Below, piece after piece: positions 41,775 to 51,180 of a stretch of DNA of 64,000 bases. Position 1 is the first letter of the stretch, and every line of letters starts with the position of its first letter. The notes beneath the pieces are model-generated. The model was not told the DNA's origin. It worked only from the letters and a program-made list of their open reading frames with translations, and ran no database searches. The stretch spans positions 129,550 through 193,549 of the forward strand of contig NZ_JANINI010000001.1 of NCBI RefSeq assembly GCF_024580145.1, read 5' to 3'. This DNA comes from Methyloversatilis sp. XJ19-49 (GTDB lineage: Bacteria > Pseudomonadota > Gammaproteobacteria > Burkholderiales > Rhodocyclaceae). The position numbers and the translations under genes are program-made.

Positions 41775-43619
41775 TCAGAAGGCTTCGTCCGGTCGCAGGT
41801 AGCGCCACTTGCCGACCGGCAGGTCGGCGAGCGGGATACGGCCGATGCGCACGCGCTTGAGTGCGACCACTTCGAGGCCGACCGCGTCGCACATGCGGCG
41901 GATCTGCCGCTTCTTGCCCTCACGCAGCACGAAACGCATCTGCTCCTCGTTCTGCCAGCTCACCTTGGCAGGTTTGAGCGGCTGGTCGTCCAGTTCTAGG
42001 CCGTGATTCAGCAACGCCAGCGATTCGGCCGGAAAGACTTCCGACAGCGGGCCGTTGCCGAACGACTTCGTCGCCCGCACGCGCACCAGGTATTCCTTTT
42101 CGATCGTCGAATCCTCGCCGATCAGTACGCGGGCGACGCGACCGTCCTGCGTCAGCACCAGCAGACCGTGCGAATCGATGTCCAGCCGGCCGGCCGGCGC
42201 CAGACCGCGCAAATGGTTGCGATTGAAGGTCTGCCCTGACTTGTCGCCCATCCACTGGTTTTCCGGCACGAAAAGCACACTGGCCGGCTCGTGGCCGTCT
42301 TCAGCCTGGCCGCTGACGAAACCGACCGGCTTGTGCATCAGCACGGTGACGCGCAGCGCCTGGTCGGCGCGCGCTTCCTTGTTCACCTCGACTTTCTGGT
42401 GCGACAGCACGCGCTGGCCGAGCACGGCGACTTCGCCATCGACCGTCACCCAGCCGCGCACGATCCAGTCATCCGCTTCCCGACGCGACGCCGCGCCCCG
42501 ATCCGCCAGCCAGCGCGACACGCGGATGCCGTCCTTCGGGTGGTCGTCGCCTTCTTCGGCCGGCACGGCCTTCACGCGACCTTTCTTGTCCATGTCGCGC
42601 TCTTCCCACGGCTTGGCCGGACGCAGTGGCGCGGCGGCGGGCTTGGCGCTGCGCGCCCGCTCGCTGCCCTCGGCACGCGGCGGACGGCTGTCGCGTTCGG
42701 GGCGCGGTGTCCACGGGCGCTTCGGCGCGTCGTCGGCATTGGGGGGGCGGGCCGGGCGCTCGCCACGATCACTACGTGGCGGACGATCGGCGAAATTGCC
42801 GCGCGGCGCGCGCTCGCTGCCTTCGGCACGCGGCGGACGGCTGTCGCGCTCGGGACGCGGTGTCCACGGACGCTTCGGGGCGTCGTCGGCACCGGGCGCA
42901 CGGGCAGGCCGCTCGCCGCGATCGGTGCGCGGCGGACGATCGGCGAAATTGCCGCGCGGCGCGCGTTCGCCGCCTTCGGCACGTGGCGGACGGCTGTCGC
43001 GTTCGGGGCGCGGTGTCCATGGGCGCTTCTGCGCGTCGTCGGCACCGGGCGCGCGGGCAGGGCGCTCGCCCCGATCGGTGCGTGGCGGACGATCGGCAAA
43101 GTTGCCGCGCGGCGCGCGTTCGCCACCTTCGGCACGCGGCGGACGGCTGTCGCGCTCGGGACGCGGCGTCCACGGGCGCTTCTGCGCGTCGTCGGCACCG
43201 GGCGCACGTGCAGGGCGCTCACCGCGATCGCTCCGTGGCGGACGATCGGCGAAGTTGCCGCGCGGCGCGCGTTCGCCACCTTCGGCACGCGGCGGACGGC
43301 TGTCGCGTTCGGGGCGCGGTGTCCATGGGCGCTTCGGCGCGTCGGCGGCACCGGGCGCGCGGGCAGGGCGCTCGCCACGTTCGGTGCGCGGCGGGCGATC
43401 GGAAAAATCCTTGCGGGGTGGCCGGTCACCCATGTCGCGGCGCGGCGCGCCGTCGCGGCCGCGCGGCGTCTTGGCGGCAGGCGCGACCTGGGTGGTATTG
43501 CGGCTCAATGTACGGGACTTGGCGGTGCTGTTGCGCACCGGCTTGCGGGCCGGATCGCGGTCCGAGGCAGTCGGGCTGTCGGATTTGCTCGGCAAACCGA
43601 GTTTCGGACGAGTGGTCAT
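41775..43619 (-). CDS. rluF: RluF-like 23S rRNA pseudouridine synthase with a repeat-rich N-terminal extension
   Basis: A 614-residue protein. Residues 1-70 are a basic lead-in. Residues 72-326 are five near-identical 51-residue repeats rich in Arg, Pro, Asp and Glu (core RPWTPRPERDSRPPRAEG). The enzyme part (about 370-614) has S4 (IRVSRWLADRGAASRREADD), catalytic GRLDIDSHGLLVLTQDG, and GKKRQIRRMCDAVGLEVVAL. RluF modifies U2604 of 23S rRNA; the family assignment within RsuA-type enzymes is by overall pattern. Normal RluF is about 290 residues, so half of this protein is extension. The start at 43619 gives MTTRPKLGLP. Confidence 0.9.
   Translation of the reverse strand: MTTRPKLGLPSKSDSPTASDRDPARKPVRNSTAKSRTLSRNTTQVAPAAKTPRGRDGAPRRDMGDRPPRKDFSDRPPRTERGERPARAPGAADAPKRPWTPRPERDSRPPRAEGGERAPRGNFADRPPRSDRGERPARAPGADDAQKRPWTPRPERDSRPPRAEGGERAPRGNFADRPPRTDRGERPARAPGADDAQKRPWTPRPERDSRPPRAEGGERAPRGNFADRPPRTDRGERPARAPGADDAPKRPWTPRPERDSRPPRAEGSERAPRGNFADRPPRSDRGERPARPPNADDAPKRPWTPRPERDSRPPRAEGSERARSAKPAAAPLRPAKPWEERDMDKKGRVKAVPAEEGDDHPKDGIRVSRWLADRGAASRREADDWIVRGWVTVDGEVAVLGQRVLSHQKVEVNKEARADQALRVTVLMHKPVGFVSGQAEDGHEPASVLFVPENQWMGDKSGQTFNRNHLRGLAPAGRLDIDSHGLLVLTQDGRVARVLIGEDSTIEKEYLVRVRATKSFGNGPLSEVFPAESLALLNHGLELDDQPLKPAKVSWQNEEQMRFVLREGKKRQIRRMCDAVGLEVVALKRVRIGRIPLADLPVGKWRYLRPDEAF
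42642..43406 (-). repeat. five tandem 153-bp repeats inside the RluF-like gene
   Basis: Five units of exactly 153 bases (51 codons), differing by a few substitutions each; the motif CGGACGGCTG recurs at 153-base steps (for example 42681 and 42834). The frame is kept throughout. The last unit degenerates at its end (ERARSAK). The regularity suggests recent unequal recombination, and copy number may differ between strains. Confidence 0.95.
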
Positions 43620-43722: not shown

Positions 43723-45660
43723 ATGTCGGAAACCGCCACCGCCGCCCAGACCATGAATTTCCAGGCCGAAGTGAAGCAGCTGCTTCATCTGATGATCCAT
43801 TCGCTGTACAGCAACCGCGACATTTTCCTGCGCGAACTGGTCAGCAATGCGTCGGACGCCTGCGACAAGCTGCGTTTCGAAGCGATTGCGGATCCGGCCC
43901 TGCTCGAATCCGACTCCGACCTGAAGATCCGCGTCGCCTTCGACAAGGTCGCCCGCACCATTACGATCACCGACAACGGCATCGGCATGTCGCGCGACGA
44001 AGCGATTTCCCATCTCGGCACGATCGCCCGCAGCGGCACCAAGGAATTCTTTTCCAGCCTGACCGGCGACCAGAAGAAGGACGCCAACCTGATCGGCCAG
44101 TTCGGCGTCGGCTTCTACTCCGCCTTCATCGTCGCCGACACCGTCACGGTCACCACGCGCCGCGCCGGGCTGCCGACCACCGACGGCGTGCGCTGGTCGT
44201 GCTCGATGACCGGCGATACGGCGGGCGAATACACCGTCGAACAGATCGAGCGCGAGGCGCGCGGCACCGAAATCGTGCTGCACCTGCGCGAGGATCAGGA
44301 CGAACTGCTGTCCGGCTTCAAGCTCCGCCACATCATCCGCGAATACTCCGACCACATCCTGCAGCCGGTCGTGATGAAGAAGGAAGAGTGGAAAGAGGGC
44401 GAGCAGATCACGACCGACGAGGACGAAACGGTCAATCAGGCCAATGCGCTGTGGACCCGCTCGAAGTCGGACATCACCGACGAGCAGTACGATGAGTTCT
44501 ACAAGCACGTCAGCCACGACTTCCAGCCGCCGCTGGCCTGGTCGCACGCACGGGTCGAAGGACGGCACGAATACACCCAGCTGCTGTACATCCCGGCACG
44601 CGCGCCCTTCGACATGTGGGACCGCAAGACCAAGCACGGTCTGAAGCTCTACGTGCGCCGCGTGTTCATCATGGACGACGCCGACAAGCTGCTGCCGGGC
44701 TATCTGCGCTTCGTGCGTGGCGTGGTCGATTCGGCCGACCTGCCGCTGAACGTGTCGCGCGAAATCCTGCAGGAAGGGCGCGACATCGACACCATCCGCT
44801 CCGGCTGCACGAAGAAGATCCTGTCGGTGCTGGAAGACCTGGCCGAAAACGAAGATCCGGCGCAGAAGGAGAAATTCACCACCTTCTGGAAGGCCTTCGG
44901 CAATGTGTTCAAGGAAGGCGTGGGCGAAGACACGGCGAACCGCGAACGCGTCGCCAAGCTGCTGCGCTTTGCGTCAACACATCTCGATACCGACGAGCAG
45001 TCTGTGTCGCTGGCCGACTACCTATCGCGCATGAAGGACGGCCAGAGCAAGATCTACTACGTGACGGCCGAGTCGTTCAAGGCGGCAAAGAACAGCCCGC
45101 ACCTGGAAGTGTTCCGCAAGAAGGGCATCGAAGTGCTGCTGATGCACGAGCACATCGACGAGTGGGTGGTCGGCAACATGACCGAGTTCGAAGGTCGTCC
45201 GATGGTGTCGGTCGCCAAGGGCGGGCTGGATCTGGGCGCGATGGAAGACGAAGCCGAGAAGCAGGCGCGCGAGCGCGACGAGGGCGAATTCAAGCCGCTG
45301 GTCGAGCGCCTGCAGGCGACGCTGGCCGAACAGGTGAAGGAGGTGCGCATCACGCACCGCCTGACCGATTCGCCGGCCTGCCTGGTGTCGGACGAATTCG
45401 AGATCGGCGGCAATCTGGCTCGCATCCTGAAGTCGGCCGGTCGCGATGCGCCGGCGTCCAAGCCGACGCTCGAAATCAATCCGCAGCACCCGGTGGTGCA
45501 GCGGCTGCGCAACGAAGACGCGCATTTCGACGACTGGGCGGCGGTGCTGTTCGATCAGGCCCTGCTGGCCGAAGGCGGCGCACTGGAAGATCCGGCCACG
45601 TTCGTGCGCCGCATGAACCAGCTGATGCTGGCGATGAGCGGCGAACGCGCACCGGGCTGA
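43723..45660 (+). CDS. htpG: molecular chaperone HtpG (Hsp90)
   Basis: A 645-residue Hsp90. N-terminal GHKL ATPase motifs: [28 protein letters not shown] and [15 protein letters not shown]. The middle domain includes [20 protein letters not shown] and [14 protein letters not shown], and a C-terminal dimerisation domain closes the protein. It refolds and remodels client proteins in the cytoplasm. Length is normal for bacterial HtpG. A possible heat-shock promoter lies upstream and an intrinsic terminator downstream. Confidence 0.98.
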
Positions 45661-45695
45661 CACGCGGTTCATCGCGACAACCGGCGATGTGAAAT

Positions 45696-45724
45696 GGGCG
45701 CTCCAATGTTGAAGCGCCCTTTTT
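45696..45724 (+). terminator. intrinsic terminator after htpG
   Basis: GGGCGCT (45696-45702), a 10-base loop, AGCGCCC (45713-45719) and five T. It stands between htpG and the convergent GGDEF/EAL gene. Confidence 0.88.
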
Positions 45725-45769
45725 CTTCCCGCCGACATTCATCGCGGCAGGTCGGTGCGCGCCCGGCGT

Positions 45770-47629
45770 TCAGCTGCCGGCGCCCTCGCACAGGAACCGC
45801 TCGAATTCATCCGGCGCGAGCGGCGGCGCAAACAGATAACCCTGGTATCGCAGACAACCAAATTCACGCAGGCGGTCGCGCTGCGCAATTGTCTCCACCC
45901 CTTCGGCGATCACGTCGAGACCGAGGATGCGCCCCATAGTGACGATGGCCTGCACGATGGCCTCGTCGTCCGGATCGCTGGCGAGGTCGCGGACGAACAC
46001 CTGATCGACCTTGATCTGGTCCAGCGGCAGGCGTTTGAGGCAGGACAGCGACGAAAACCCGGTTCCAAAGTCATCCAGCGACAGTGCAATGCCCTGTGCC
46101 TTGATCTGCTGCATGCGCCGGACGGTTTTGTCGATGTCCTCGATCACGAGACTTTCGGTCAATTCGAGCTTGAGCCGGGCGGGGTCGGCACCGGTCCGCG
46201 CGACAATGGCCGCCAGTTCATCGACGAAGTCGCTCTGGTGAAACTGGCGTGCGCTGACGTTCACTGCAACGATCAGATGCTGCGTGACCTTCGAAGCGGA
46301 CCATTTTCGAATCTGTTGACATGCGGATTCAAGTACCCAGCGCCCGAGCGGCCTGATCAGATCCGTTCCCTCGGCCAGCGCAATGAAGTCGCCGGGCAAT
46401 ACCAGGCCGCGCGCCGGATGCAGCCAGCGCAAAAGCGCTTCGGCGCCGATTACACGTCCTGAATCGTCCAGTTGCGGTTGATAGAAAGCGCGCAGTTGTC
46501 CGTCGCTTACGGCATTGCGCAGATCCGCTTCCAGCGCGCTGCGTTCCTCAAGCGCAGTCTGCATGGCCGGGTCGAAGAAGCGCAACGTGTTGCGGCCCGC
46601 ATTCTTGGCTTCATACATCGCAAGGTCAGCGTGCTTGAGCAGCGTGTCGACCGGCACGTCGTGGTTGCGGAACATCGAGACTCCGATGCTGCTTGTGCAA
46701 TGGAAGTCGCAGCCATTAAGAGGGTAGGGCAGCGCGAGTGCCTCGCGTATCTTGTCGCCGACCAGCCTGGTCTGTGCAGCGGCCTCGTGCGCGTCCGCAC
46801 TCAGGTTCAGCAACATCACCACGAATTCGTCGCCGCCAAGCCGTGCCACGGTATCGCCTTCGCGCACATGCATCTGGATGCGCTCTGCGGCCTGCAGCAG
46901 CAACTGGTCGCCCACGTCATGGCCGCGCGTGTCATTCAGTACCTTGAAATTGTCCAGGTCCAGAAAAAGTATGGCACCGAACGAATTGCTACGTGTGCTG
47001 CCCGCCATGGCCTGCGCGATGCGGTCGAGCAGCAGCCGCCGGTTAGGCAGATGCGTGAGTGCATCGTAGTAAGCGAGACGGTGAATTTCCGCTTCGGCCT
47101 CGAGGTGGCGGGTAATTTCCGAGAAGGCACCGACATAGTGAGTCGTGCGCCCGTCAGGGCCATTCACCTCCGAAATGGTGAGCCATTCGGCGAACAGTTC
47201 GCCGTTCTTGCGCCGGTTCCACAGCTTGCCCTGCCAGTAGCCGCTGTCTTTCAGCGCTTCCCACATCTGCCGATAGAAGTCGCCGTCCTGACGCCCCGAG
47301 TTGAGAAGATTCGGCGTCTGGCCGATCGCCTCTTCGGCGCTATAGCCGGTCAGTTTTGTGAACGCACGGTTGACCCGGATGATCACCCCGTTCGGATCGG
47401 TCACCATCATGCCTTCCTGCGATTCGAATGCGATCGCCGCAATGCGGCGTTCCTCGTCAGTGCGCTTGCGCCGCGCAGTGATGTCGCTGATTGCCACGCG
47501 AAGCGTATGAGTCAATGCATCGTCGCGGCTGCTGCGCAGACAATCGATGCTGGCGTCGAAGAAAGTGCCGTCGCTGCGCTGCAAGGTCAGTTCGCAGGTC
47601 GATCTGCCGTCCTGCCTGAGCGCCTGCAT
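45770..47629 (-). CDS. PAS-GGDEF-EAL c-di-GMP enzyme, part downstream of an amber codon
   Basis: The open part after the amber codon gives 619 residues from the first ATG (47629), which lies inside a first PAS domain. Then come a PAS domain (about 60-170: MMVTDPNGVIIRVNRAFTKL, GYSAEEAIGQ), GGDEF (about 180-350, with RLGGDEFVVML intact) and EAL (about 360-610, with AEALLRW, VNVSARQF, LDDFGTGFSSL, KVDQVFV and AEGVE intact). Both catalytic signatures are intact, so the enzyme may still work if translation restarts here; no good ribosome binding site was identified. It makes and/or degrades c-di-GMP. Confidence 0.75.
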   Translation of the reverse strand: MQALRQDGRSTCELTLQRSDGTFFDASIDCLRSSRDDALTHTLRVAISDITARRKRTDEERRIAAIAFESQEGMMVTDPNGVIIRVNRAFTKLTGYSAEEAIGQTPNLLNSGRQDGDFYRQMWEALKDSGYWQGKLWNRRKNGELFAEWLTISEVNGPDGRTTHYVGAFSEITRHLEAEAEIHRLAYYDALTHLPNRRLLLDRIAQAMAGSTRSNSFGAILFLDLDNFKVLNDTRGHDVGDQLLLQAAERIQMHVREGDTVARLGGDEFVVMLLNLSADAHEAAAQTRLVGDKIREALALPYPLNGCDFHCTSSIGVSMFRNHDVPVDTLLKHADLAMYEAKNAGRNTLRFFDPAMQTALEERSALEADLRNAVSDGQLRAFYQPQLDDSGRVIGAEALLRWLHPARGLVLPGDFIALAEGTDLIRPLGRWVLESACQQIRKWSASKVTQHLIVAVNVSARQFHQSDFVDELAAIVARTGADPARLKLELTESLVIEDIDKTVRRMQQIKAQGIALSLDDFGTGFSSLSCLKRLPLDQIKVDQVFVRDLASDPDDEAIVQAIVTMGRILGLDVIAEGVETIAQRDRLREFGCLRYQGYLFAPPLAPDEFERFLCEGAGS

Positions 47630-48019
47630 GAAGTGTCGATGCCAGAAATCACGGTCTTCGGGAACGATGAAGCGTGCGAAGCGCCGTTGCAGCAGCTTGC
47701 GGCGTTCTTCCCCAAGCAGGGTTGCGCCGGTCAGATTGATGGACGATATCTGGTCGTTGCAGGTCAGCGTGATGTAGCCGATCGGCGCCAGCTCGTAAAG
47801 ATCGAGGTAGCGGTCGCGCGACTCCTACAGCGCGATATGGGCTTGGGCGAGGGCCTCGTTCTGCATTTCGAGCTCGATCTGATGCACCTGCAATTCGTGC
47901 AGCAATTCGTCTGCAGGACGCGGAGGCACGCGGCACGAACGAGCAAGGTTGAGCCTAGCTTCCGCGGCAGTTCGCAGCGCGGCCTTATCGTTGGCAGGAT
48001 CTTTTCCTCTCATCGGCAA
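45770..48019 (-). pseudogene. full PAS-PAS-GGDEF-EAL locus interrupted by one in-frame TAG
   Basis: One continuous frame runs from ATG 48019 to the stop at 45770 except for a TAG at 47825-47827. The first 64 codons (with PADELLHELQVHQIELEMQ and NEALAQAHIAL) lead straight into ESRDRYLDLYELAPIGYITL after the TAG; in relatives this junction reads ALEESRDRY or similar, so the TAG replaces a single Glu or Gln codon. No ATG, GTG or TTG was noted between the TAG and 47629. It could be a real nonsense mutation, a sequencing error, or a readthrough site. Confidence 0.75.
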
Positions 48020-48168
48020 CCGCCTCTTCGCGTTTCTGCGTGTGCGCGACTGCCTGAGCGCGCGTCGGCAGCAGACTCACCTACAACTTGGGTAGTATCA
48101 CCTGCCGGCAGTGCCGCCGCCTTGCCGTAACGCAAAAAGTTTGGCGCAGCAGCGTCTTTCGGCACTGC

Positions 48169-51100
48169 TCAGTCGCTGACTGGCGATATGTCCGGTGAAG
48201 CCGTTTCCATCGCCAGCAATATGAGCGGCGTCTGCCCGCTTTCACCGACGATGCGACGGGCGTTGAGCAGCATCCGGCAGCGGCCTCTGGCAGGGGTTTC
48301 GAGGTCGATCACAAAGTCGTTCATGCTCTGGTCGCGCGGCAGCAGACTTTCCAGCAGTTCGCGCAGCGCGGGCACATTCCACTGACCTCTGCCGCGATCC
48401 TTGCCCAGTTCGTAGAGCGAGCGTCCCACGGTGTCATCGGGGGCGGTATCGAAGCGCTGATAGAAAGAGCGGCTTGCCGACACCACCCGCATGTCGGCGT
48501 CGAGCACGACCAGCGGTTCGCGTACCGTATCGACGATACTCTCGGCGAGTTGGCGGGCCTTGTGTTCGGCGGCTTCCGCCTCGATGCGCCGGCTGATATC
48601 GTTGAAGGTCAGCACTACGCCCTCGATCACGTTGTCCAGCGTTCGATAAGGCTGGATCCGGGCCAGATAGCTGGCGCCGGCAATCGTACGTACCTCGCGC
48701 TCGAACGGCACCAGCGTGTCGAGTACGTTCTGTGCTGCGGCGCCGAGGTCTTCTGTCAGATCCGATTTGATGTCCGTCAGCGAACGCCCGACATCCGTTG
48801 CAACCAGCCGGTAGATGCGTGCAGCCTCCCGCGTGTAGCGGCGAATCGCAAGGTGCTGGTCTAGAAAGACGGTGCCGACGTTGATGTTGTCGAGCAGATT
48901 CTTCATGTCGTCCTGCATGCTGGCCAGTTGTTCGATCTTGGCCTGCAGTTCGGTGTTGACCGAAATCAGCTCCTCGTTGACCGACTGCAGCTCTTCCTTC
49001 GATGTTTCGAGTTCTTCGTTGGTGGACTGCAGTTCTTCGTTGGTGGACTGCAGTTCTTCGTTTGCGGACTTAAGTTCTTCGTTCGACGCCTGCTGCTCCT
49101 CGATCGTCGCCTGCAGATTTTCCCGCGTGTAGGCGAGATCACGTTCCAGTTCGCCGATGCGCTGCAATTCCGGCGAGCCCTCCTTCTGCGGCTTTCTCCG
49201 GCGCGTGTGCAGCGCCGGTTCGATCACGTCCTCGAAGCTGACGAGCAGCAGGTTCTGGCCGCTCTCCGGGCCCTGCAGCGGGCGTACGCTGAGCTTCACC
49301 CTCTGCGCATCGCCGCCGTCGGCGCCGATCGCCACTTCGCGGCCCAGCGTTGCCTGACCCTGTGCAGCCCCTGTGTTCAGTGCAGTGCGCAGTTCTATCT
49401 GCAGCCCTTCCCGGGCCATATCGACCACGTTGAGCGATGCCTGGCCCGGCGCCGGTCGCAGATATCGGCCGGTTTCGCCATGCACGAACAGGATGTTGCC
49501 CTTGAGGTCGGTCACCACCGAGGCAGGTGCGTACGACTGCAGCAGCACGCGCCGCGTGAAGTCCGAAAAATTCGCTGCCTTGACCACCTTGGTCGCTTCG
49601 CCGGGTTCCTTGCCGCCGCCGCCGACCGCCGCCGCCGGGTGATCGCTCAGCATGAGCCGCGTCGGCAGTGCCGAATGCACCGCCCGATAGAATTTCCACT
49701 TGCGGTTGATGGCCGAGAAAAGCTCCGGGTGATTTCCGGTGCTCTCCGACGGCGACAGGAACAGTACGCCACCTGGCTTCAAAGCGTAATGGAAAGTGCT
49801 GATCAACCTATTCTGCAGTTCCGGCTCGAGATAGATCATCAGATTGCGGCAACTGAGCATGTCCAGCCGGGTGAAGGGTGGATCCTTGACTGCATTCTGC
49901 GTCGCGAACACGACCATGTCGCGGATCGCCTTCTTCACACGGAAACCGGCCTCTTCCTTGCCGAAGAAGCGGCGCAGGCGTTCAGGCGTGATGTCGGCTG
50001 CAACATTCGGCGGATACAGGCCGGCGCGGGCCACTGCAATCGCATCGTCGTCGAGGTCCGTGCCGTAGAGCTGGATCTTCAACTCCTGATGCGTGTCGTC
50101 CATGAATTCGCGCAGCACCATGGCGATTGAGTAGACCTCTTCGCCGGTGGAGCAGCCGGCCACCCAGATGCGGAATACGTAATCCTCCGGTTTTCCGGCG
50201 AACAGCAGCGGCAGGATGTCCTGCTTGAGAACATCGAATGCGTCGGGGTCGCGGAAGAAGCTGGTGACGTTGATCAGCAACTCCTTGAACAGCGCCTGCG
50301 TCTCTTCGGGATGCTCCTTCATGTAACGCGCGTAGAGCTCGATGTCGGCGAGGTCGTGCTGCGCCATGCGCCGCTCGATGCGGCGGCCTATCGTGCTCTT
50401 CTTGTAGAGCGAGAAGTCGTGCCCGGTGGCGGTGCGCAGCAGGCTCAGCAGACGATCGACGCCACCCTTGCGCAGCGGTTCTGCCTGAGGCTGACTGCTC
50501 CCGGAGCGCACTTCGGGATGTTCGAGCTGCTTCGGCAGCCTGGCGAGCAGCAGCGGGGGCATCCGTTCGGCCGGCAGCACATGCATCGCATAGCCGGACT
50601 GGATGGCGCTGCACGGCATGCCTTGGTACTTGGCGCTGGCCGGTTCCTGCACCAGCGTGATGCCACCAGCGCCAAGGATGGCACGCAGTCCCTGCGTACC
50701 GTCGGTGCCTGTGCCGGACAGGATGATGCCGACTGCGCGTTCGCCCTGATCTTCCGCAAGCGACCTGAAAAAGGCATCGATAGGCATGCGCTGCCCGCGC
50801 GGCGCATCCGGCAGCGACAGCAGCAGCGTGCCGTTGGCGATCGTCATGTCGCGGTTGGGCGGAACGATGTAGAGCGTGTCGGACAGGACGGCCGTGCCGT
50901 CCTGCGCTTCGACGACCCGGATGCCGGTGTAGCGCTGCAGAATTTCCGTCAGCATGCTGGCGTGGCTGGGGTCAAGGTGCGGCACCAGCACGAATGCAAG
51001 GCCGCTGGCCGCCGGGATGTTCCGGAAGAACGCTTCGTAGGCGTCGAGTCCGCCGGCGGAGCCCCCCAGCGCAACGATGTTGCGCGGTGACGGCACGGTG

Positions 51101-51180
51101 ACGGCGATTGGATGATCAGGCGCCGATACGGTCTTGCGCGAGCGGCGGCGCGCCGCGTTGCTGCCCTTGTTGTCGTTCAT
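48169..51180 (-). CDS. CheB-CheR fusion with coiled coil and PAS domains
   Basis: A 1003-residue protein. The CheB methylesterase domain (about 30-215) has catalytic Ser in GGSAGGLDA, His in PHLDPSHASML and Asp in SGTGTDGTQG. The CheR methyltransferase domain (about 235-490) has RIWVAGCSTGEEVYSIA and the DMLSCRNLMIYL segment. A linker, a long Glu/Asn/Leu coiled coil (about 680-760, repeated ASNEELKSANEELQSTNEEL pattern) and two PAS domains follow (about 770-1000). Many relatives continue into a histidine kinase; this one ends after PAS. It may adapt receptor methylation in a chemosensory-like pathway. It lies upstream of the GGDEF/EAL gene on the same strand, 149 bases apart. Confidence 0.93.
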   Translation of the reverse strand: MNDNKGSNAARRRSRKTVSAPDHPIAVTVPSPRNIVALGGSAGGLDAYEAFFRNIPAASGLAFVLVPHLDPSHASMLTEILQRYTGIRVVEAQDGTAVLSDTLYIVPPNRDMTIANGTLLLSLPDAPRGQRMPIDAFFRSLAEDQGERAVGIILSGTGTDGTQGLRAILGAGGITLVQEPASAKYQGMPCSAIQSGYAMHVLPAERMPPLLLARLPKQLEHPEVRSGSSQPQAEPLRKGGVDRLLSLLRTATGHDFSLYKKSTIGRRIERRMAQHDLADIELYARYMKEHPEETQALFKELLINVTSFFRDPDAFDVLKQDILPLLFAGKPEDYVFRIWVAGCSTGEEVYSIAMVLREFMDDTHQELKIQLYGTDLDDDAIAVARAGLYPPNVAADITPERLRRFFGKEEAGFRVKKAIRDMVVFATQNAVKDPPFTRLDMLSCRNLMIYLEPELQNRLISTFHYALKPGGVLFLSPSESTGNHPELFSAINRKWKFYRAVHSALPTRLMLSDHPAAAVGGGGKEPGEATKVVKAANFSDFTRRVLLQSYAPASVVTDLKGNILFVHGETGRYLRPAPGQASLNVVDMAREGLQIELRTALNTGAAQGQATLGREVAIGADGGDAQRVKLSVRPLQGPESGQNLLLVSFEDVIEPALHTRRRKPQKEGSPELQRIGELERDLAYTRENLQATIEEQQASNEELKSANEELQSTNEELQSTNEELETSKEELQSVNEELISVNTELQAKIEQLASMQDDMKNLLDNINVGTVFLDQHLAIRRYTREAARIYRLVATDVGRSLTDIKSDLTEDLGAAAQNVLDTLVPFEREVRTIAGASYLARIQPYRTLDNVIEGVVLTFNDISRRIEAEAAEHKARQLAESIVDTVREPLVVLDADMRVVSASRSFYQRFDTAPDDTVGRSLYELGKDRGRGQWNVPALRELLESLLPRDQSMNDFVIDLETPARGRCRMLLNARRIVGESGQTPLILLAMETASPDISPVSD

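Follow-up and report, generated by a model that had tools for sequence, protein, structure and literature searches.

In Shigella flexneri, dgcE, dgcQ and dgcN carry nonsense mutations before the GGDEF domain and still make c-di-GMP (PMC11327459). Several of the degenerate Shigella genes are described as giving rise to more than one protein, with sizes that fit either a restart of translation or the full-length product (PMC11327459). The locus described here lies in a 64,000-nucleotide stretch of DNA from Methyloversatilis sp. XJ19-49, which is called the window below. Its main features are as follows (positions are those of the window):

45770 to 48013, minus strand: interrupted PAS-PAS-GGDEF-EAL gene, 747 codons including the TAG, plus the final TGA (from the frame, Pfam and the orthologues)
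47825 to 47827, minus strand: in-frame TAG, codon 63 counted from the ATG at 48013
47825 to 48013, minus strand: N-terminal fragment, 62 residues and the stop; putative helical lead-in to the first PAS
47540 to 47755, minus strand: weak PAS-like sensor match, residues 87-158 (PF24820, 25.8 bits against a cut-off of 28.1)
47111 to 47422, minus strand: second PAS domain, residues 198-301 (PF13426 and PF00989)
46589 to 47074, minus strand: GGDEF domain, residues 314-475 (Pfam, E 2.7e-45)
45821 to 46528, minus strand: EAL domain, residues 496-731 (Pfam, E 7.3e-72)
48169 to 51180, minus strand: upstream CheB-CheR-PAS gene, the partner in a two-gene block

The minus-strand frame runs from the ATG at 48013 to the TGA at 45772-45770 with one in-frame interruption, the TAG at 47827-47825, and re-reading it confirmed that the stop is single, as stated in the original prediction. 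The start had been placed at an ATG at 48019. This position is an in-frame TTG, six bases upstream of the ATG at 48013-48011, and the latter stands behind the stronger Shine-Dalgarno sequence (duplex of -8.1 kcal/mol versus -5.2 for the TTG), so the start was corrected. Since a PAS domain, GGDEF and EAL were all found by Pfam, the frame is coding and not a chance opening. With respect to the two PAS domains that had been proposed, one (residues 198-301) is clear, whereas the first PAS-like stretch (87-158) is weak and stays below the cut-off. In the translation RxxD sits five residues before GGDEF, and the motifs EALLRW and DDFGTGFSSL are present in the EAL domain; judged by eye, we take these catalytic signatures to be intact, as had been claimed. 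With both catalytic domains and their motifs recognized by Pfam and by eye, the gene belongs among the PAS-GGDEF-EAL genes, and its GGDEF-EAL product is a putative c-di-GMP turnover enzyme. What the gene lacks is an uninterrupted reading frame, which both of its orthologues (see below) possess. A promoter and terminator scan of positions 45600-48300 revealed nothing beyond chance level.

The two-gene block was found with both genes in 3 of 13 Methyloversatilis genomes, namely that of the window and the congeners G012 and G009, whose block DNA is 85% and 81% identical to the window, respectively. In both congeners an orthologue without the stop (86% identity in G012, 82% in G009) occupies the same locus beside htpG with the same domain order, thus the intact gene expected in relatives of a nonsense pseudogene is present. 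The orthologues run unbroken across the site, which bears out the view that the sequences on either side of the TAG belong to one protein, and the comparison with close relatives that had been suggested gave Glu at the stop column in both. In the other 10 of the 12 congeners, the N-terminal 180 residues found no counterpart at E 1e-15 among the matches listed. The genomic neighbourhood of htpG (6-8 kb) was surveyed in these ten genomes. In G007, G003 and G002 a chemoreceptor gene follows htpG directly and the two-gene block is absent, and in G001, G011 and G005 htpG and the chemoreceptor gene are separated by another GGDEF-EAL gene. This one is 39% identical to codons 184-741 or 742 of the interrupted gene, and neither the N-terminal 180 residues of the latter nor CheB-CheR found a match in it. 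In G010 the space beside htpG holds neither gene of the block, and in G004, G006 and G008 no chemoreceptor match was detected within the 6-8 kb stretch. The slot beside htpG is therefore variable across the genus and the two-gene block is accessory. At E 1e-3 the post-stop protein has 43 matching places in the window's genome, one of which is the interrupted gene itself and some of which match through PAS alone. Taking into account these many related genes and the ten congeners without an N-terminal match among those listed, loss of the gene is probably tolerated. The interrupted gene meets htpG (43723-45660) tail to tail, thus there is no same-strand gene directly downstream on which polar effects could act.

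Synonymous divergence of the GGDEF-EAL gene from the two congeners (0.56 and 0.71) was the highest among the listed window ORFs, and that of CheB-CheR was also high (0.44 and 0.55) compared to the adjacent htpG (0.20 and 0.11), a pattern that may reflect gene exchange or a faster rate of evolution. By the same measure, along window positions 2518-62445, the ORFs at about 2.5-15.1 kb had G012 as the nearer congener, and htpG and the majority of ORFs past 51.5 kb had G009; this change suggests recombination among species. An rluB-like gene (named by eye) at 42600-43500 encodes a long N-terminal series of near-identical Arg/Pro-rich repeats (RPERDSRPPRAEGGERAPRGNFADRPPR...).

The residue replaced by the stop was studied in a wider set of homologues. 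From 138 loci examined, 46 local alignments spanning the site were obtained, and merging identical 45-residue stretches left 42 distinct sequences; at least 92 of the 138 loci had no alignment across the column and lie outside this count. The column contained 34 Glu, 2 Gln, 2 Lys, 1 Ala, 1 Gly, 1 Asp and 1 gap, and a stop in none of the 42. In the narrower group of homologues that share the same lead-in, Glu was found in seven of seven. The corresponding codons are GAA, GAG and GAG in the two congeners and in G050, whose gene is 60% identical and has no stop at the column. Three of the 150 matches listed were recorded with a stop: the window gene, G271 and G254. The PAS-type homologue in G271 (L209:965-1726) has an in-frame TAG at query residue 105, not 63, and the G254 match splits into two local alignments, neither of which contains a stop. 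The stop of the G050 gene (C73) comes at query 743, where the protein ends, and the local alignments of G028, G006 and two other genes of the window's own genome, which had been flagged as well, contained no stop. A programmed stop conserved in the family was rejected on account of the different position in G271 and the stop-free column in the 42 sequences. The exact 24-base sequence around the stop had no match in viral contigs.

Selection on the part of the gene beyond the stop was estimated by NG86 counts and by a four-taxon codon model (682 codons), both written as Python code of our own and not taken from a standard package. For codons 64-747, the window branch had an omega of 0.10, with limits at about 0.06 and 0.18 (defined by 1.92 log units and read off a grid), versus 0.094 on the other branches, and freeing the window branch gave no better fit (2dl 0.14, p 0.71). 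Compared with G012, the NG86 dN/dS was 0.13 over the entire gene, 0.14 within codons 64-128 and 0.11 from codon 129 to the end. Relaxed selection after the stop, which would be expected only of an old pseudogene, was not seen, omega being about 0.10. As purifying selection is not measurably weakened on the window branch, either the stop arose recently or the gene still yields a product. If nothing is made past the stop, we estimate that neutral drift would account for roughly a tenth of the window branch at most.

In our view, the gene, an accessory one for c-di-GMP turnover, is probably present here as a recent nonsense allele with a single altered codon. This reading brings together the stop, the intact orthologues, the lack of measurable decay and the lack of any tRNA found for TAG; termination at the TAG, loss of function and tolerance of the loss are what we infer. 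Ribosomes would start at the ATG at 48013 and halt at the TAG through RF1, and a 62-residue peptide without a domain would be released. The full-length sensor-GGDEF-EAL protein would be lost or nearly so, and at most a little GGDEF-EAL protein would arise via internal initiation. On the other side, continued production would equally show undiminished selection and intact catalytic motifs. The original interpretation, which offered a recent nonsense mutation, an assembly error and stop-codon readthrough as causes, is partly supported: intact orthologues, the absence of measurable branch decay and the lack of any other convincingly broken frame among those compared make the first of these the best supported.

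It is fairly unlikely that the TAG is an error of the assembly or of the sequenced culture. The change affects one codon only in a draft of 45 contigs, and the allele was seen in one genome, the single one of its species in the comparison; it may thus be an error or be confined to one culture. Against this stand the size of the contig (564 kb), the completeness of the genome (99.97%) and the state of the other frames of the window. Congener ORFs of at least 120 codons were compared with the window, a match being defined as 60% identity or more. Such matches were found for 46 of 88 ORFs of G012 and 45 of 83 of G009, and 13 and 12 of them, respectively, were flagged as stopped or split. Two of the flagged rows represent the interrupted gene itself and two the frame 61211-59748 (pN/pS 0.19, no stop), whose apparent break merely reflects the upstream extension of a stop-to-stop ORF. 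The remaining 21, a few of which were inspected by eye, had pN/pS values of 0.66 to 14.2 in the best piece and were taken as non-coding or antisense frames. Among the window genes with a congener match, no other frame was both interrupted and coding-like relative to G012 or G009. This argues against a poor assembly, although a single base may be wrong.

A shortened working gene, in which a second start frees GGDEF-EAL from the N-terminal sensor, is unlikely. The following sequences are relevant to such a restart:

47405 to 47407, minus strand: candidate internal ATG start at codon 203; its product would have 545 residues and complete GGDEF and EAL domains
47412 to 47418, minus strand: AGGAAGG, Shine-Dalgarno-like, four bases before the ATG at 47407 (duplex -6.5 kcal/mol)
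47627 to 47629, minus strand: codon 129, the nearest ATG past the TAG, with a weak Shine-Dalgarno sequence (-1.5)

There is no in-frame ATG, GTG or TTG between the TAG and 47629. The earlier statement that a good restart is missing thus holds as far as 47629, itself the less likely of the two starts, but the ATG at 47407 had been overlooked, and with it a reinitiation inside PAS2, which is feasible in physical terms and for which the literature offers a parallel. The duplex at this ATG has -6.5 kcal/mol versus -8.1 for the real start, the GGDEF and EAL motifs behind it are intact, and Shigella flexneri dgcE, dgcQ and dgcN provide a precedent (PMC11327459). However, the ATG lies 418 bases beyond the TAG, and starting there would shorten PAS2 by its first few residues. 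Moreover, ATG ATG with the preceding CAG GAA GGC is also found in both congeners, where it encodes the conserved peptide SQEGMMV. Since AGGAAGG is part of conserved coding sequence that the intact orthologues share, the signal is incidental and did not evolve for restart.

If only the later part of the gene were still under selection, codons 64-202 should differ from the rest. By parsimony, the ratio of nonsynonymous to synonymous changes on the window branch was 9:11 in codons 64-202 and 9:50 in codons 203-747 (Fisher p 0.012), compared to 3:11 and 15:52 on the G012 control branch (p 1.0). The two branches did not differ within codons 64-202 (Fisher p 0.27), and maximum likelihood did not uphold the contrast (omega 0.115 versus 0.100 in codons 64-202, p 0.71), so relaxed selection between the TAG and codon 203 was discarded as a finding. 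Omega for codons 64-202 alone was 0.10-0.12, versus 0.065 elsewhere, with limits so wide (about 0.045 to 0.33) that they would accommodate a mild relaxation in this region. We consider it very unlikely that the one stop turned a sensor-controlled enzyme into a 545-residue GGDEF-EAL enzyme by way of the pre-existing internal Shine-Dalgarno sequence and ATG; if true, breaking of a gene would amount to a one-step regulatory change in an environmental species.

TAG is an ordinary stop in this genome, with no sign of sense use: RF1 is present above the cut-off, and the stops of 43 long non-overlapping window ORFs (ORFs, not curated genes) are 8 TAG, 8 TAA and 27 TGA. None of the 45 tRNAs, which are all loci found in the genome and were checked with ARAGORN, has a CUA anticodon, although this count may overlook an unusual tRNA that Rfam's model does not cover or that the draft lacks; readthrough by a suppressor tRNA was therefore rejected. 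Programmed or constitutive readthrough of the TAG to the full protein would fit the intact, selected frame behind the stop and the bands of full-length size reported for Shigella dgcN and dgcQ, for which readthrough is named as one possibility (PMC11327459), but with these decoding data and the stop-free column of the 42 homologous sequences it is highly improbable, and among the causes in the original prediction it is disfavoured.

With the recent nonsense allele as the preferred reading, the main value of the analysis lies in the correct annotation of a single, recently broken allele in a gene family of which each genome has many members. Bacterial readthrough and suppressor systems likewise have an in-frame stop within one coding sequence; here, in contrast, no suppressor tRNA was found and the stop is not conserved. 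The G012 and G009 orthologues share the same block with CheB-CheR-PAS beside htpG and differ by Glu in place of the stop. In Shigella flexneri, dgcE, dgcQ, dgcN, dgcM and pdeR likewise have an early stop in front of a GGDEF or GGEEF motif that is intact, and they contain internal methionines (PMC11327459). In three of the Shigella genes described there a Met follows within a few codons past the stop (PMC11327459), unlike in the Methyloversatilis gene, where the stop is followed by its first ATG after 66 codons and by the ATG with a Shine-Dalgarno sequence after 140. For the Shigella genes that source gives measured residual activity, mostly upon overexpression in E. coli, and several products, whereas the Methyloversatilis gene is known from sequence alone. 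The likeness drawn here is that of a stop before an intact motif. If the internal start works, the gene would provide an example from outside Shigella of a c-di-GMP gene that through a nonsense mutation drops the sensor and keeps the enzyme.
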